From the NCBI RefSeq assembly GCF_000264905.1, contig NW_006763132.1, forward strand, positions 1,155,503 to 1,219,502: a stretch of DNA of 64,000 nucleotides. The letters run 5' to 3'. Under the pieces are notes generated by a model. It had not been told where the DNA came from. It ran no database searches and was given only the letters and a program-made list of their open reading frames with translations. Positions 6,867 through 60,333 of the stretch are shown here, piece after piece. Position 1 is the stretch's first letter, and every line of letters begins with the position of its first letter. The DNA is from Stereum hirsutum FP-91666 SS1 (Eukaryota > Basidiomycota > Agaricomycetes > Russulales > Stereaceae). The position numbers and the translations under genes are program-made.

Positions 6867-9196
6867 ATGTTCCGCCATTCCTTACCGCATCTACATTCTA
6901 CCCTCATCCAAACTTCATCCAGAAACATATCCCGAAGAACGATTGCTTCTCTTCCTACTCGAAACCCCCTCTTGCACACCCAATGCCGTCCTCGAATATT
7001 ACCCCTAGGCAATGGTCATGATCCACGACACTCCTTGACCCCTCTTTTTGTCGCTGGTTTTCATTCAACACACAGACGGCAAGGATTGCCTATAATCCCC
7101 TTGCTGGCCATCCTGAAAGTCAGCCTCTCCCATTCTCACATACCAAATATCGTACTGAGCCCACCAGTCCTATCGCTCTTCCTAACAGGCCTCCACTGCT
7201 CTCGAAATAGCACGCACCGCAGGTCGTATCGCCTTCACTTTCATCCCACTCCTCATCCTCAAAAACTGCAAGTCAAGAAAGATTCTGCAGAGGGTCGAAC
7301 ATGCGGAGAAGAATAACATCGAGCTTCCGTGGATGAAGGATCCGAAACGAAAGCGGGAGACACTGATGAAGAGGATGAGGACCAGGGCGCTTCTGTTCCA
7401 TGCATTGATGTTCACGCCATTCGTACTTTTCTGGGGAGCAATCATTGCAAGTTTGGAACGGACACCGTTAACTGGCAGGTAAGTTGCTCTTCAGTTTCTT
7501 CCATCTCTTCGTATCCAGTACCTCTTCCGGGATTCTGCAGAAATCGTCTTCTTTCCGTGAGGACGTCGATTCTGGTGCCTTCGTACGTGTTCAGGTGAAT
7601 ATCTCAGACGGGCATGGCTACCCGTGTCGACCTGCAAGCCATCATACCTGTGTTGAGTCTATATCGCAGCTGCGGATTTGTTCTAATGAAATCACATCAA
7701 TCCTGCATTGATCTCATTGGTGCATCAATTTACCATGTCTCCTTTGATCATGATCGTCCGTCTGCTCATTCGTATGCACATACAAGATTACGCTCGAGCT
7801 TTCTTAGGGCCCTGTGTATATTTAGACTCAGCCACCTTTCCGGGTCGTTTGTGCACTTGAGTTTCTGACAGTGTCTCACGCCATCCTTGTGTCCTTTAGG
7901 TGGCGCCTCATCCTTCTCTCGCCCGAAGAGGAAGAAGAAATATCTTCACAACTCGCCGGATCTGGCTGGTACCATGCCATTGGTGAGATCCTCGCCAAGG
8001 ACGGACCTATAAACCCCATTCCACCAGGCGACTGGCGGCATGCGTGGGTCGCCGACACCCTTCGACGTCTCGAAACGGTCATTCCTCTTCTAGGAAACGA
8101 ACGTATGCTCGAGCCACAATGGCTCGAACGAAGTGCAGATGATATCCCTCTTCCTCCACCCGCCGAATTTCCCCTCAAACCTCGTCCACGGGCCTCCGAG
8201 GTACTACATACGCTTTGCCAGATGTCGACCGCGAGGGATCCAGCACCAGGGCCTGCACCACATATTATCCCGGGACCCCCCTACTCACTTGTATTGATCG
8301 ATAACCCCGAGTCATGCAATGCATTTTCGTATGGCTTTGGGCCGGACGGGGCAGGCGGCGTCGTAGTATTCTCGGGATTCCTCGACCAAATACTCGCTAA
8401 ACAACCCCTGGAGCAAGTTATCTTAGAACAACCATCCTCATCCTCATGGTTATCCTCCCTCTTCGGTTCTCTCTTTTCATCGCCACAACCGTCCGTCATC
8501 TCATATCGCCCCACCCCCGAACAAACTTCCGACCTCGCCATCCTCCTAGCTCACGAACTCGCACACCTCGTGCTCTCCCATCATCTGGAGACTTTGAGCT
8601 CGCGGACGATCGTCATTCCTGGCGTGCTGTCGATCCTTTCGGATCTATTGAGGACCTTAACGTTCCCGTTGACGATGCTTTTTGGACCGTTTGTGAACGA
8701 TGCCGTAGCACAGATGGGGAAGGTGGGGTCGGGAGAGCTAGGGATCATACATGAAAACTGTACGACCATGCTTCAAGAGATCGAGGCGGATGTGGTCTCG
8801 GCAAGGTTAGTCACCTCAATTCATCGTATAGGGCATCCCGGTGTATCTTTTGCTGCAACCTTCCTGCTGACATATCCCATGTTACGCAACGGCAGACTTC
8901 TCGCCCATGCAGGCTTCGATCCCCGTCGCGCGGTCCAGTTCTGGGAGGACCGCTCGGACGAGGCGAACACCGAATGCGGACCTACCGCCAATCCTGTTTC
9001 TACCGCCGACAAAGCTGCGCAGAAAAAGGTGAAGAAGGAGAGCTGGTCTATGGCTATGAAGTTGACGAGTTCAGACCATCCGATGAATGAGGTGAGGGTG
9101 AAGGAGTTGAGGGCAGAGTTGCAGAGGTGGCAGGAGGAGAGGGAGAAGATAGTGGCGGCTAATGAGCGGGCGCGGAGAGAGGCAACGGAGCCCTAA
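6867..9196 (+). CDS. OMA1: OMA1-like mitochondrial M48 metalloprotease
   Basis: Zinc metallopeptidase of family M48C, the OMA1 quality-control protease of the mitochondrial inner membrane. Four exons (6867-7118, 7189-7478, 7900-8805, 8896-9196) give 582 residues. The first 40 residues are basic and hydroxylated without acids, as in a mitochondrial presequence. A hydrophobic segment (ALMFTPFVLFWGAIIASLE) is followed by TPLTGRWRLILLSPEEE, a typical OMA1 signature. The HExxH site is HELAH at residues 399-403, and the third zinc ligand is probably Glu476 in the EADVVSAR|LLAHAGFDP block, which is rebuilt exactly by removing the intron 8806-8895. The C-terminus is a charged helix. The second intron (7479-7899, 421 nt) is unusually long for this genome. 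Start chosen because it supplies the presequence. Confidence 0.88.
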
Positions 9197-25123: not shown

Positions 25124-25402
25124 ATGAGTTTTGCAAGGAAGAACCAGCAGCAACTGACAAGCGAGCCTCCTAAGCTTGAATTGATCATCGACTTCCCGAG
25201 CGTTGGCCGTATCATTCAGGCGAAGACGATGGCGCAGGTAGTGAAACAGCAAGGTAACACCAACATTCCTCCAATTGCAGCCATCCTGAACGAGTCCAAA
25301 ACATATGCAAACTACAAGGACTGGTGGACGTTGACGAAGAGCTCTCGAGGCAGCTCTGGGCAGAGCGAGGCCACGCTCGGAACAACCGGGAAGAGCGTGT
25401 GA
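25124..25402 (+). CDS. Small unrecognised protein (92 aa) just upstream of COX4
   Basis: Single uninterrupted ORF whose sequence looks protein-like: a basic start (MSFARKNQQQ), then LELIIDFPSVGRIIQAK, a NTNIPPIAAI segment and YANYKDWWTL, ending in a Ser/Gly-rich tail. I do not recognise a family. It ends only 97 bases before the ATG of the cytochrome oxidase subunit on the same strand, so it could be an independent short gene, the upstream cistron of a shared transcript, or a long upstream ORF. The opposite-strand ORF over the same bases lacks family features. Confidence 0.45.
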   Translation: MSFARKNQQQLTSEPPKLELIIDFPSVGRIIQAKTMAQVVKQQGNTNIPPIAAILNESKTYANYKDWWTLTKSSRGSSGQSEATLGTTGKSV

Positions 25403-25499
25403 CGGCGTGACAGTGACAAGCGGAGGGTGCGAGACGGTCGTCGTTATCGACCTCGACGTTCGGTTCACCACCACCACCATCAACTCCTTTCTCAACGCC

Positions 25500-26197
25500 A
25501 TGCAGTCCGTTCTCCGCGTCGCCCGCCCGGCGTCGCTCGCCATTCGCGCAGCCAGGTCATCCTCTGTCCGCACCATCGCCACCAGCGCCGTTCGCCGCTC
25601 TGAGGACCATCTCGCCTTTGCCCCCACCCTCTTTGGTCCCGGTGCGAAGAAAGGCGAGGTCGCCACCGCTGAGAACCAGTCCACCGGTCTCGACCGTGTA
25701 GAGTCTCTCGGTCTCCTTCAGGGTGTTGAGGTTTGGGATCAAAACCCTCTCGACTCGAGCCGGATTGGGACCAAGAAGGACCCTATCAAGGTCATTTCCT
25801 ATGTACGTCCAGTTTATCTACTTCTCCTTCCCCACTTCTCCTACACCTCTTCTTATCAGAGACTCTTTCTCGAGTCCCCTTCGGATTCATATATATATCG
25901 GCTCACGTCTTGTGTTTCGTCTTTAGTTCCCCGAGCGTACCATTGGCTGCACCGGAAGCCCTGCCGACTCGCACGATATTCAATGGATGGTCCTCAACAA
26001 GGACAAAATCCGTCGCTGCCATGAGTGTGGCTCTGGTCCGTTGACTTCCCTTCTGCTTCTCCCCGTCCATGTCTCATATCATTCTGTATCCTTTTCGTGT
26101 TACAGTGTACGAGCTCGACTACAAGCCTGACGAGGTCGTCCTGCAAGAACTCCACCCCCAGGAGCAACTCTCCGAGCCTGCTCACGGCCACCACTAA
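25500..26197 (+). CDS. COX4: Cytochrome c oxidase subunit COX4/Vb, mitochondrial
   Basis: Zinc-binding structural subunit of respiratory complex IV (yeast Cox4, mammalian COX5B). Three exons (25500-25802, 25927-26035, 26106-26197) give 167 residues. The first 35 residues are Arg/Ser/Ala-rich and acid-free, a clear mitochondrial presequence. The mature part has LGLLQGVEVWDQNPLDSSRI, then FPERTIGCTGSPADSHDIQW and IRRCHECGSVYELDY: one Cys in GCTGS and the CxxC of CHEC fit the zinc site of the family. The acceptor before FPERT and the donor after CGS are exact GT-AG matches. The protein ends in HGHH. Confidence 0.95.
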
Positions 26198-32264: not shown

Positions 32265-33740
32265 TTAGGAGATGAACGTACACTCGTTGTAGATGTACCC
32301 TTCCGCCTCCAACCCACCCGACAAGCCAGGTAAGATTTCATCCGGACCAGTGAGCGTAATCTTCCCAGGGTTGTGCCACTAGGTGACCCGATCCAGCCAG
32401 TTAGCCAGGATTTCGAGGCCTGCAATCACAAGAAAACACACCTGATAAATGTATGGCTTCGTGCCCGCCACATAGCTCACCACGGCCTTGACAACAGTCG
32501 GAATCTCCGCCAAAAAGTCCACCTTCTCGATCAAACCTTTCTCCTTTCCAGGACCTCCCAGATCAACATTTATCGTCCCAGTCACGTTGCCTGGTGCCTC
32601 GGGCAAAAGCGAAGGGCCAGCCCAGTGGAAGAGGAGTCGCGAGGGCTCATCATAGCCGGTATCGGGATCGTGAGCGGCGTCCAGGTGAGTAGCCCTGGAC
32701 TTGACCACCGCATTCGCATCCTGCTCTTCTCCCGGCCACTTCGTCTCCGCCGTCACTGCGACGAGCTTATTCGCAATTACGAGGCCCCCTACGCTGACAT
32801 TGACGAAGCCAGACCCCGCACCCTTCCCTCCGTAGTCGTTTATCGTGGTGAAATCCATGAGGATCGCGGAGACACCTCCATGCTGTTGGCTTTGGAAGTG
32901 CCCGAAGTTCCAGCGAGCTGCAACGAGGTTGGGGCGCATGCCCTGGATGGCGTGCACGAACATGCCGGGACCCTCGACGCTCGTCGCTTTGCCGTTCTGA
33001 ATGACATGACCAGTCGCGACAGCCCTCGGCCAGAACCTGTGGATGACGTATCCGTCTGGCTTCTCAAGGTCGTGGCCGAAATAGGAGTATCCTCCCTTGG
33101 GGCCCTTTCCGATCTTAAAACCGGGAACAGAGGTAGGACGACGGACGTCTAGGGAGATCTGAAGGTCACTGGAGAAGTTGACATTGATGGTATAGGATTC
33201 AGCGTATTCGGAAGGAGAGTCGGAGGATTTAGGAAGAGTCTTGTGAGTGATGGTGAACTGGTCGGATCTGCTCGATCGTTTATCGAGACCGGGCGGGGGA
33301 GTAGTGAAATTGGAGACATTGATGGAGCGCCAAGTGGTCTCCTTGGTGTTTGGATTGTAGATCCTGCAGGTGGCCTGAACGGTGGGATACCATACACTGA
33401 GAGTCACATCAGTACGATATTTCTTGCGACCTCCGCTATGGGCGATGATGATGTCAGCCCACTCACCCTATGGACGAGTGAATAATCTGGACCATCAAAC
33501 TCGTTCCATCCTCCAGAATATGGTACCAGATTTGAGTCTCGGCGACGAACCCGCCGGAACACAACCATTCGGTGTCCTTTGGCTCAAGCTCGCCAAAAAG
33601 CTCGTTGGGACCCTTGCCGGTAGAAACGGGATGGAAGTTTGGGGCTGTTGGGTCAACAGGGGCGGAAGTCCTGGTAAGGGTGTCAGAGTACACTGGGGCA
33701 TCTGAGTGGAGAATACGCACGAAAAGAACGAGGAAAACAT
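32265..33740 (-). CDS. SVF1: Svf1 family protein (survival factor 1)
   Basis: Cytosolic/peripheral lipocalin-like protein; yeast Svf1 is needed for oxidative and cold stress survival and acts in ceramide transport. The first exon encodes MFSSFFS, and removal of a 52-nt intron joins it to TSAPVDPTAPNFHPVS, the usual fungal start. Following blocks are EWLCSGGFVAETQIWYHILE, TCRIYNPNTKETTWRS, GPKGGYSYFGHDLEKPDGYV, IHRFWPRAVATGHV, GMFVHAIQGMRPN, AARWNFGHFQSQQ and the late FLAEIPTVVKAVVSYVAGTK. The last exon, KITLTGPDEILPGLSGGLEA, ends ECTFIS. Family length and order are complete. The gene is divergent from the Acl4-like gene. Confidence 0.92.
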
Positions 33741-44110: not shown

Positions 44111-44115
44111 GTTCT
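44111..44115. repeat. Target site duplication, left copy (GTTCT)
   Basis: GTTCT directly before the 5' LTR; the same five bases follow the 3' LTR at 45643-45647. Confidence 0.92.
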
Positions 44116-44383
44116 TGTTGGATTTAGCTAGTTGCAGCTCGACGTCGCGAGAGCTTTCGCGAGCTTTCGACGGACACGGATGACTCAGCAGCGCAGCTGC
44201 TTTGCCAATCTCTCGAGTACTGTAGAATTTTCTAGATACATTGTACAGTAGTATAAATACATGTTGTGTTTACCTGTGTAGGGCATCGGTTTGCCCTAAC
44301 ACAAGCCAGCCTCACAGCTCAGTGTGATTGCAAGCCCTCTCAGATTTCTCGTGCTTTTCTCTCTCGCTCACGAAAATCCAACA
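44116..44383 (+). repeat. 5' LTR (268 bp)
   Basis: TG...CA ends with 8-bp inverted termini. TATAAA at 44252-44257 is a likely promoter; transcription would start some 25-30 bases further on. A hairpin TAGGGCA-TCGGTT-TGCCCTA (about 44279-44298) follows and may mark the R region. Two copies of GAGCTTTCG occur in U3. Confidence 0.93.
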
Positions 44384-44429
44384 CAAACCGATCTCGGTAC
44401 CGTCGCCGATAACCCGACGCTCGTCCATC

Positions 44430-44957
44430 ATGTCCAGCTTAACCGCTGCGACTGATCTACCGACGGATCTCCCGACGGCAGCTCCTCTCGTCGCCCCTGC
44501 GCTTTGCCTCACGCGTCGCCACTCCCTTGCACCCATTACTCCTGTGCGCCACACCCGCTCTACCACCCTTCCTCTTCGTCGCACATCCTCCCTCGACGCC
44601 AGCGCACGCGCCCCGCCTCTGCCATCACCCTCGCGTTCTCGCGACAGTCATCCCGACTGGAGCAGAGCTATCTGCCGCCACTGCCGAGAAGTGGGCCACA
44701 TAGCCCGTGTATGTCCCTCCGCCACTCTCGTCATTTCGTCCCCGCGTAAGCCGCGAAGTTCAGACGCGCCGCCGTTACCCTCTCCGTCACCTTTTTCATC
44801 CGCCGCACCTCCTCCGGCCTCTCCACCCTCCAACCCCGCGTGGCGAAAAGCCATCTGTTGTCTTTGTGGTATTCCCGGCCACATCGCACGCACCTGTCCT
44901 CGTTCGAGCTCAGCTCCGAGACACCCATCGTCCGCCATTTCCGTGCTTTGTGCATAG
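44430..44957 (+). CDS. Gag-like protein with two CCHC zinc knuckles (175 aa)
   Basis: The only recognisable product of the LTR element. Residues 1-80 are Thr/Pro/Arg-rich and basic. Two CX2CX4HX4C knuckles, C82-C95 (CRHCREVGHIARVC) and C143-C156 (CLCGIPGHIARTC core), each follow the same lead W-x-x-AIC and end HIARxCP, so the knuckle unit was duplicated. A Ser/Pro linker separates them. Such knuckles bind RNA in retroelement nucleocapsids. An upstream in-frame ATG (44328) lies inside the LTR; 44430 is the first ATG after the LTR. A second open frame (+1) overlaps and runs on to 45333 as a basic peptide. Confidence 0.8.
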   Translation: MSSLTAATDLPTDLPTAAPLVAPALCLTRRHSLAPITPVRHTRSTTLPLRRTSSLDASARAPPLPSPSRSRDSHPDWSRAICRHCREVGHIARVCPSATLVISSPRKPRSSDAPPLPSPSPFSSAAPPPASPPSNPAWRKAICCLCGIPGHIARTCPRSSSAPRHPSSAISVLCA

Positions 44958-45365
44958 ACGGGTTCGATCCCCGGTCCGGAATTTGACGTTGACTCTCCGC
45001 CGTCCCTTGTCGCCACATCCTCAGCCCCTATTCCGCCACTTCGCCGCCACCCACCGTTCCTATCCCTTGCCACCCACACTCCTCGCCACCTTCGCCCCGA
45101 CTCTCTCTTTTCGGTGTCTCATCCAGGCTGTATTGGGCACGGTTACGGATGCCGTAGCGCCAGGTGAGCCGGTGCTCACGACGCCTCGACGCGCATCAAC
45201 CGCTAGGATACGCCGTTCGTCATCGCGAGCAGAACGGAATTGCCATATGAAGGAACGCGCGCATGTCCAGGGGGAGTTCCTGACCACTGCCGTAGGTTCT
45301 GACCATAGACGGGTAATTCACTGCATGTCGTAGTTGATCTAGAGGTCTTTCCCGCACGTCTCGCT

Positions 45366-45374
45366 GAGGGGGAG
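45366..45374 (+). other. Polypurine tract of the LTR element
   Basis: GAGGGGGAG directly abuts the TGTTGG start of the 3' LTR; it would prime plus-strand DNA synthesis. Confidence 0.85.
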
Positions 45375-45642
45375 TGTTGGATTTAGCTAGTTGCAGCTCG
45401 ACGTCGCGAGAGCTTTCGCGAGCTTTCGACGGACACGGATGACTCAGCAGCGCAGCTGCTTTGCCAATCTCTCGAGTACTGTAGAATTTTCTAGATACAT
45501 TGTACAGTAGTATAAATACATGTTGTGTTTACCTGTGTAGGGCATCGGTTTGCCCTAACACAAGCCAGCCTCACAGCTCAGTGTGATTGCAAGCCCTCTC
45601 AGATTTCTCGTGCTTTTCTCTCTCGCTCACGAAAATCCAACA
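45375..45642 (+). repeat. 3' LTR (268 bp), identical to the 5' LTR
   Basis: Same length, ends and internal sequence as the 5' LTR, including TATAAA at 45511-45516. No difference was found in a line-by-line comparison. The target duplication GTTCT follows at 45643-45647. Confidence 0.93.
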
Positions 45643-45868
45643 GTTCTTTCATGACCGACAGAAACCTTATTGCTCGTGGCAGTGTGGGCTGGATCGTTGA
45701 CGAGACTGAAGAGGCGAAGACGACATATGAAAGCACGTAGTATAACATGAGCGATGTAAATATACACTACAACATCACAGCTGTAATTCAGATCCAAACG
45801 TTCGCAAAGTCCAAAGGTAAAAGCAAAACACACCGACAAATAAAAACGGACCTTTCCACTACACGCTA

Positions 45869-59400: not shown

Positions 59401-59457
59401 CCATCGCCTTTATAACAAGCCTGATTGCGACGGTGAAAAACGAGCAACGCGACCGAA
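56407..59457. other. Long region without a recognised gene
   Basis: About 3 kb. The first 200 bases hold the MADS-box promoter. Overlapping ORFs of up to 168 codons (56437-57137 and 58491-58997, +) have no domain. A minus-strand fragment around 57660-57715 reads KYSNMIIGGDFTGN, which recalls the GGDFN motif of LINE-type endonucleases, but nothing else supports an element. A two-exon reading at 59034-59227 (+), MNTMPSITPLPAVKSLLAKG onward, is also possible but unsupported. Confidence 0.35.
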
Positions 59458-60333
59458 ATGCAAGCCCCACCGAACACCGTGCTGCTCGTCATCGACGCCC
59501 AAGCGTCCAACTTCCTCCCTCCGCCCCTCGGCGTCCCCGACGGCGCCATCCTCCTCCTCGCCCTCCAGCGCGTCCTCTCCATAGCCCGCGCCGCCCGCGA
59601 CAAACCGCTCATCATCCACACCACAAATCCCCCCGACTTCTTCTCCTCGCCGCTCGCACACGCACACACGTCCACCGCCACCGCCGCAGCCTGCTCCGTC
59701 CCGTTTCACCATCGAGACCGGCTCTCGCTCGATCCTCGCAAACTTAACCACGCAGGATATCCCTCCGACCCTCTCGATCCCGGTCCGGAACGCTCTGCTC
59801 GTTGCCTCAGTAGCGTCTCCTCGACCTCCTCGCCTCCATCGAGCCCACTCTCATCCCCTCCCGCATCCCTCCATATTCCGTATCCCCTCCCTCTCCGCCC
59901 GCTACCCTCCGAACCCGTCGTCTCAACCCCTAAAAACAACGCGTTTTCACATACGCGGCTTTTCTCGCTCATCCCACCCGGTCCTAACGTCCTCGTTGTC
60001 GTCGTAGGCTGCCAGACCGATTTTTGTATACGCGCGACGTGCAGTGCAGCGCTGGATAGGCGTAACCAGGTCGTGTTGGTGAGGGGCGCACATGGGACTT
60101 ATGATAGGATGGATGTGCCCACGCCGGGCGGGAGGAGGAGGGCCGCTGTCCGTTCGCGGGCGCCGTTCGGTCTCGGCTTGGGAGGTGCGGGCGTCGGGAT
60201 GGGCATGTTGGAGAGCTCGGGGACGTTGGAGAGGACGGGGGCGAGGGTGGTGCAGGGGGAGATAGAGGCGGAGTTGGAGGAGGCGGGGGTGGTGCTTGTG
60301 GATGTGGAGGATGTGGAGGAGTTGTTTGGTTGA
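59458..60333 (+). CDS. Isochorismatase-like cysteine hydrolase
   Basis: Single-exon gene of 291 residues in the isochorismatase/nicotinamidase-like superfamily (alpha/beta hydrolases with an Asp-Lys-Cys triad). D13 lies in NTVLLVIDAQ, K159 in VVSTPKNNAFSHTRL, and C190 in VVVGCQTDFCIRATCSAAL; the following VVLVRGAHGTYDRMD fits the family. Between the first strand region and Lys159 there is a Ser/Pro-rich insert (about residues 106-150: SSTSSPPSSPLSSPP) that the core fold does not need. GC content is very high. The substrate cannot be inferred. No intron, unlike most neighbours. Confidence 0.85.
   Translation: MQAPPNTVLLVIDAQASNFLPPPLGVPDGAILLLALQRVLSIARAARDKPLIIHTTNPPDFFSSPLAHAHTSTATAAACSVPFHHRDRLSLDPRKLNHAGYPSDPLDPGPERSARCLSSVSSTSSPPSSPLSSPPASLHIPYPLPLRPLPSEPVVSTPKNNAFSHTRLFSLIPPGPNVLVVVVGCQTDFCIRATCSAALDRRNQVVLVRGAHGTYDRMDVPTPGGRRRAAVRSRAPFGLGLGGAGVGMGMLESSGTLERTGARVVQGEIEAELEEAGVVLVDVEDVEELFG

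Follow-up and report, generated by a model that had tools for sequence, protein, structure and literature searches.

Among non-autonomous LTR retrotransposons, TR-GAGs are defined by an LTR pair enclosing a non-autonomous interior with gag-type sequence and no enzymes, and TRIMs by a length under 2,000 bases and an interior with no recognisable domain, in the available part of the source (PMC6022998). TRIMs have been reported in basidiomycetes (PMC5689174, available portion). Priming of reverse transcription by the element's own RNA has been reported for Tf1/sushi elements and proposed for Tcn1 Gypsy elements, according to the accessible text of PMC7175516, and it has been predicted for the plant TAR Copia elements (PMC6317226, in part). 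The fungal GalEa Copia elements are described as having no tRNA primer site, LTRs of the form TGT...CA, a 5-bp duplication and a zinc knuckle of the form C2C4C4H (PMC5445492, in the part available).

The locus described here lies in the wood-rotting mushroom Stereum hirsutum (strain FP-91666 SS1), within a stretch of 64,000 nucleotides that we refer to as the window (contig NW_006763132.1, positions 1,155,503 to 1,219,502). It holds a complete LTR element of 1,527 bp (44116-45642), flanked on each side by GTTCT, with an interior of 991 bp between two LTRs of 268 bp. Its features, in window coordinates, are:

44111..44115, no strand: left copy of the target-site duplication GTTCT, read from the sequence.
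44116..44383, plus strand: 5' LTR of 268 bp, identical to the 3' LTR; both are among 22 LTR matches in the own genome.
44252..44259, plus strand: presumed TATA box TATAAATA of the 5' LTR, a motif also present in 13 of 14 LTRs compared.
44281..44296, plus strand: R hairpin GGGCATCGGTTTGCCC, from a pattern search, with a second copy at 45540-45555 in the 3' LTR.
44285-44293, plus strand: predicted RNA 5' end and self-primer, placed by its complementarity to the primer site; the transcription start is a prediction.
44384..44392, plus strand: predicted primer-binding site CAAACCGAT, adjoining the 5' LTR, the exact complement of 44285-44293 and the same in all three full copies.
44430..44957, plus strand: Ser/Pro-rich ORF of 175 aa with two zinc knuckles (ORF and Pfam searches); no capsid or enzyme domain found.
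44673..44714, plus strand: zinc knuckle 1, CX2CX4HX4C (PF00098).
44856..44897, plus strand: zinc knuckle 2, CX2CX4HX4C (PF00098), aligning with the module of knuckle 1.
45269..45277, plus strand: upstream AGGGGGAGT, a second site resembling a purine tract, also present in a related family with 293-bp LTRs.
45366..45374, plus strand: polypurine tract GAGGGGGAG, abutting the 3' LTR; the 293-bp-LTR family has the same tract ahead of its own 3' LTR.
45375..45642, plus strand: 3' LTR of 268 bp, identical to the 5' LTR.
45643..45647, no strand: right copy of the target-site duplication GTTCT, read from the sequence.

The frame of this element had been described in an earlier note made from the sequence, and here the description held throughout: the two LTRs show 0 differences (44116-44383 against 45375-45642), the GTTCT duplication stands at 44111-44115 and 45643-45647, the inverted LTR ends read TGTTGGAT/ATCCAACA, and the polypurine tract GAGGGGGAG occupies 45366-45374 at the 3' LTR. 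A perfect repeat of 268 bp cannot be chance, and the direct LTRs with TG...CA ends, the target duplication and the polypurine tract are those of an LTR retrotransposon. At 1,527 bp the element falls under the TRIM limit of 2,000 bases, and its interior encodes two zf-CCHC domains where a TRIM has no recognisable domain. The TATAAATA motif is absent as such from the remaining LTR of the 14 compared, on C19. It should be noted that two AGGGGGAG tracts precede the 3' LTR at a distance of 97 bp (45269-45277 and 45366-45374), as they also do in the 293-bp-LTR family; the upstream tract (45269-45277) may be a second plus-strand start. The nearest identified gene downstream encodes a Na/Ca exchanger family protein (PF01699; 46612-48390, minus strand), and farther off in the window lie genes for Svf1 (32379-33467, minus), a peptidase M48 (7826-9196, plus), COX5B (25335-26024, plus) and an isochorismatase-type protein (59437-60333, plus).

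A search of the own genome (a 46-Mb assembly in 38 contigs) with the LTR and the interior found a multi-copy family and not unrelated single copies; the earlier note had proposed such a search. The LTR gave at least 22 matches, which we read as six LTRs of three full copies, six solo LTRs at 95% or above, one mosaic solo LTR, and nine matches that belong to two related families. There are thus at least three full copies (the window copy, C2, and copies on C14 and C17) and at least seven solo LTRs, the mosaic included; the interior matched over its whole length in at least three places. The 5-bp duplication is kept in 9 of 10 insertions; the C17 copy (C17:498509-500040) is without a matching duplication, its flanks reading CCATG/CCAGT.

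The LTR pairs differ at 0 positions in C2, 0 in C14 and 1 in C17, which amounts to 1 difference in 805 sites when pooled. With a basidiomycete substitution rate of 1.05e-9 per site per year (PMC5689174, available portion), the 0 differences in 268 bp place the age of the window copy below 5.3 My (95% upper bound); at the same rate the pooled pairs give a mean of ~0.6 My and a 95% upper bound of ~2.8 My. The insertion had been called very young; relatively recent is a fair description, and the stronger wording is loose, given a bound of 5.3 My from LTRs so short that they date the event only roughly. The same shortness leaves room for an older insertion whose LTRs have been kept identical by gene conversion, as LTRs of this length are poor for dating and the absence of differences permits up to 5.3 My; the intact duplication and the single difference in 805 sites over three LTR pairs speak against it, therefore youth is the simpler reading, and we regard the older insertion as very improbable. 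Taken together, this is a genuine and relatively recent family, and the element itself is almost certainly a non-autonomous LTR retrotransposon.

The interior had been said to encode a CCHC zinc-knuckle protein and no enzymes, and the domain searches bear this out. The ORF of 175 aa contains two CCHC knuckles (Pfam PF00098, E 5.5e-7, above the cut-off) and no further Pfam match above the cut-off, neither capsid nor enzyme; the Pfam scan of the interior covered this main ORF and two further frames (44707-45333, plus strand, and 44648-45079, minus strand), in which nothing was found. Likewise, a six-frame search of the genome for the Copia polymerase (RVT_2) placed none of its 13 matches in the element. 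Measured against TR-GAGs, which have a gag domain and lack reverse transcriptase, integrase and RNase H, the element shows zinc knuckles only, with no capsid and no enzyme in the frames scanned. The label "gag-only" used previously is therefore too strong, since no capsid domain was found: the knuckles are there, but the ORF is more variable than the rest of the interior, with dN/dS of 0.48-1.02, and "zinc-knuckle-only" fits better. Both knuckle modules come after APPLPSPS and align along their length, and therefore the pair probably reflects an internal duplication.

The ORF is open in all three full copies and retains every zinc ligand. Its length is by itself unremarkable: when the interior was shuffled 500 times, 32 of the results held an ATG ORF of at least 175 codons. 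With 30 random substitutions it would stay free of stops with a probability of 0.47. Among the three copies, 30 of 525 columns vary in the ORF versus 6 of 466 outside it (Fisher p 1.4e-4), the latter made up of the leader (0 of 46) and the 3' part (6 of 420). The ORF (44430-44954) is thus ~4.6 times (odds ratio) more variable than the rest of the interior, the opposite of the pattern of a conserved gene. The dN/dS values are 1.02 (C2-C17), 0.48 (C2-C14) and 0.69 (C17-C14), each resting on 18 to 22 changes per pair. The sole indel in the ORF is 3 bp long, and three indels outside it measure 1, 4 and 2 bp. Neither the variation nor the dN/dS of 0.48-1.02 argues that the protein is required. A protein search with the ORF product gave a sole match at E 0.001 or better among 1,022 candidates, STEHIDRAFT_125050 (an uncharacterized protein of Stereum hirsutum FP-91666 SS1, 93% identical), which is the ORF of the C17 copy. 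As a host gene the ORF was rejected: outside the three copies, the own genome offers no match better than E 0.0014. That match falls in a long frame whose sequence looks protease-like by eye, and the part of it examined contains only one such knuckle.

An autonomous Copia helper had also been suggested, together with a search for a full Copia element with matching LTR ends. That search came back empty: 13 RVT_2 loci were found in the genome, each of them lacking a matching LTR within 1.5 kb and showing only chance-level LTR matches (E 0.038 or worse) over that distance. In its ends the element does look Copia-like, as the purine tract and the TGTTG end resemble those of three intact Copia elements; the one readable Gypsy end, among three Gypsy 3' pieces, has a clear purine tract GAGGGGGGGAGGG followed by TGTAAG. 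The element itself contains no RVT_2 match. The Copia control consisted of 10-kb stretches around six RVT_2 loci, three of which have LTR pairs (C5, C6 and C23); in these three intact elements GGTTATGGGCCCTG follows directly after the LTR, and none has a self-complement of 7 nt or more. This primer site, which we take to be complementary to half of the initiator tRNA-Met, is missing from the window element. A plain Copia reading is disfavoured because GGTTATGGGCCCTG is common to the three intact Copia elements and absent here. A hairpin site of the GalEa type was considered as well and dropped, as no Conserved Hairpin Site follows the 5' LTR.

What follows the 5' LTR instead of GGTTATGGGCCCTG is a 9-nt sequence, CAAACCGAT, that begins at offset 0 and is fully complementary to LTR positions 170-178; counted from the first base of TATAAATA, these positions start 33 nt downstream. 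A 9-nt complement at offsets 0-3 was reached by 50 of 20,000 shuffles; it should be noted that the length of 9 nt was chosen after the match had been seen. In two controls, 62,450 other 9-mers of the window had a complement in the LTR in 0.15% of cases and in the stretch past the TATA box in 0.008%, and random 9-mers of interior composition did so in 0.07% and 0.015%, respectively. When the RNA is folded from 44285, its 9 leading nucleotides are bound to the primer site in the predicted structure of lowest energy; when it is folded from 9 nt earlier, the R hairpin is predicted instead and the primer pairing is lost. From this arrangement the RNA is predicted to prime its own reverse transcription.

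The alternative is that this non-autonomous LTR element is primed by a tRNA or half-tRNA outside the set compared, and that the complement is due to chance or has another role, for example as an RNA packaging contact. No usable tRNA match was found, as none of 35 tRNA genes matches over 9 nt close to the site in the correct orientation; these 35 were drawn from 63 listed and 1,406 first-look candidates, with many isoacceptors absent, Met included, and this narrow set favours the alternative, as do the loss of pairing with an earlier RNA start and the use by this genome's Copia elements of a common site that is presumably half of the initiator tRNA-Met. It is opposed by the rarity of a complement past the TATA box among the control 9-mers (0.008%) and by the genome-wide occurrences of GAGATCGGTTTG, complementary to the initial 12 nt of the site, which number six: three are the family's own sites and three are not tRNA genes. 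We consider a primer tRNA of this kind doubtful. Several individual candidates failed: among the four listed matches to a standard tRNA primer site, three are on the wrong strand and one lies 51 nt in; C8:773904, C15:482615 and C29:54786 share 12 nt with the site, and ARAGORN finds no tRNA gene at them; and a T-arm-like stretch near 44960, tried as a tRNA relic in the interior, is recognised by neither ARAGORN nor Rfam.

One related family has LTRs of 293 bp. Its LTR is 76% identical to that of the window element over 225 columns and has the same ends, and the last 88-130 bp of the interior are 78-84% identical, with the final purine tract and one upstream in common; upstream of this common 3' part, its interior reads N at C24 and C3, which hides its coding part and any helper protein in it. 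The R hairpin pattern GGGCATCGNNTTGCCC occurs at 22 sites in the genome versus 0 for a reversed control. The loop reads TCGGTT at 13 of these sites, all in the family of the window element, TCGAGT at the 6 that belong to the 293-bp family and TCGGAT at 2 from a third family; the last one lies in no visible LTR. The loops thus differ between the three families, and they offer a prediction: the R loop of the 293-bp-LTR family is ATCGAGTTG, and if self-priming is true, CAACTCGAT would be expected after its 5' LTR as a compensatory change. The single site outside an LTR (C8:1303527) contains the R motif, is not surrounded by LTR sequence and seems to be a coincidence. Two further arrangements were seen in these families. 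At C24:221633-226687 (L029 5634-6366 and L030 1-688), two LTRs of the 293-bp family stand in opposite orientation around a stretch of N, each with the interior 3' end on its inner side; 312 bp of the left flank are repeated at 99.7% directly after the right LTR, which is without its last bases. On C23 (L036 4602-4870), an LTR of the third family contains a MITE-like insert of 269 bp with 14-bp inverted ends GACCTTATATGTTA/TAACATATAAGGTC and TA on both sides.

One solo LTR connects the two families. The LTR at C24:451661 is a mosaic of the 293-bp family on the left and the window element's family on the right, with the break at 118-122: left of it, 33 of 34 diagnostic columns (4 of the 33 being gap columns) agree with the 293-bp family and 1 with neither, and right of it all 63 (24 being gap columns) agree with the window element's family. 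GAGGC flanks it on both sides, an intact 5-bp duplication. Judged from this pattern, the simplest cause would be that two RNAs were packaged together and reverse transcription switched from one template to the other. A mosaic would also result if one inserted LTR had undergone gene conversion with another, and it would then be uninformative about a helper; the position of the break in U3, upstream of the predicted R, is unexpected for a simple first-strand transfer and suits this alternative, whereas the left part starting at the first base of the LTR, the right part ending at its last base, and the intact duplication do not. We think conversion rather unlikely. On the reading as a template switch, the 293-bp-LTR family is the likely helper of the window element. 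Of the helper proposed earlier, there remains this related family, which resembles the window element in its LTR ends and purine tract and is linked to it by the mosaic LTR; it may be Copia or Gypsy.

We favour, on balance, the joint claim that this is a non-autonomous element copied and inserted by proteins of the 293-bp-LTR family, with an RNA that primes its own reverse transcription. A dependence on proteins of the related element is likely because no enzyme domain was found. Transcription would start near 44285; the 5' end of the RNA would fold back, pair with 44384-44392 and be cut to make the primer, by analogy with Tf1; the 293-bp-LTR family would supply the proteins for copying and inserting; RNAs of both families would share a particle, in which a change of template could have produced the mosaic LTR; and the knuckle protein, if made, may bind and chaperone the element RNA. 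A competing reading, with somewhat less than an even chance, is that the element simply derives by deletion from the 293-bp-LTR family, its signals having been carried along passively and its knuckle ORF being a remnant without a role. The match of the interior 3' end to that family fits such an origin, as do the dN/dS of 0.48-1.02, the excess of variable columns in the ORF (30/525 vs 6/466), the ORF length recovered in 32 of 500 shuffles and the probability of 0.47 that 30 substitutions leave it stop-free; an ORF that is uninterrupted in each of the three copies, preserves every zinc ligand and is disturbed by one indel of 3 bp where the three outside measure 1, 4 and 2 bp is harder to reconcile with it. 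The most elaborate version of the favoured reading, a parasite that unites Copia-type ends and Tf1-type self-priming, makes a two-knuckle RNA chaperone of its own, borrows capsid and enzymes from the sister family and swaps LTR halves with it in shared particles, is distinctly unlikely to hold in every part.

If the favoured reading is true, a retrotransposon that has shed capsid and enzymes, but not its terminal signals or an RNA-binding protein, can go on spreading; a mushroom element combines self-priming of the Tf1 type with Copia-type ends; and the mosaic LTR documents a natural encounter of two families, probably within a single particle. A search of the open-access literature, with subscription papers mostly outside its scope, returned no title or start of an abstract describing this Stereum hirsutum element family. 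The kind of element is already known; this one is a new, modest variant by virtue of its predicted self-priming, its knuckle-only ORF and the exchange of LTR sequence with a sister family.

Compared with the systems named at the outset, the element resembles the TR-GAGs of plants in its LTR pair and in a non-autonomous interior in which no enzyme was found, and differs in being fungal, about 1.5 kb long and equipped with zinc knuckles only, no capsid having been found. Like a TRIM it is short and non-autonomous; unlike one, it has an ORF with a recognisable domain. Fungal GalEa elements, as the available part of PMC5445492 describes them, have in common with it TGT...CA LTRs, the 5-bp duplication and the lack of a tRNA primer site, as far as the 35 tRNA genes compared here show; the window element differs from them in having no palindrome or downstream inverse complement after the LTR and a knuckle of the form CX2CX4HX4C. 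With Tf1/sushi and the Tcn1 Gypsy elements (PMC7175516, accessible text) it may be compared for a predicted primer site after the LTR that is complementary to the presumed RNA 5' end, with no match found among the 35 tRNA genes; the complement measures 11 nt in Tf1 and 9 nt here, where the RNA start is predicted, and the window element lacks Gypsy proteins and has TGTTG after GAGGGGGAG, which is more Copia-like. The plant TAR Copia lineage, for which self-priming is likewise a prediction (PMC6317226, in part), would be alike in joining it to Copia-type ends, but TAR has its own polyprotein, whereas the window element, with no enzymes detected, is a compact variant of a known genomic parasite.
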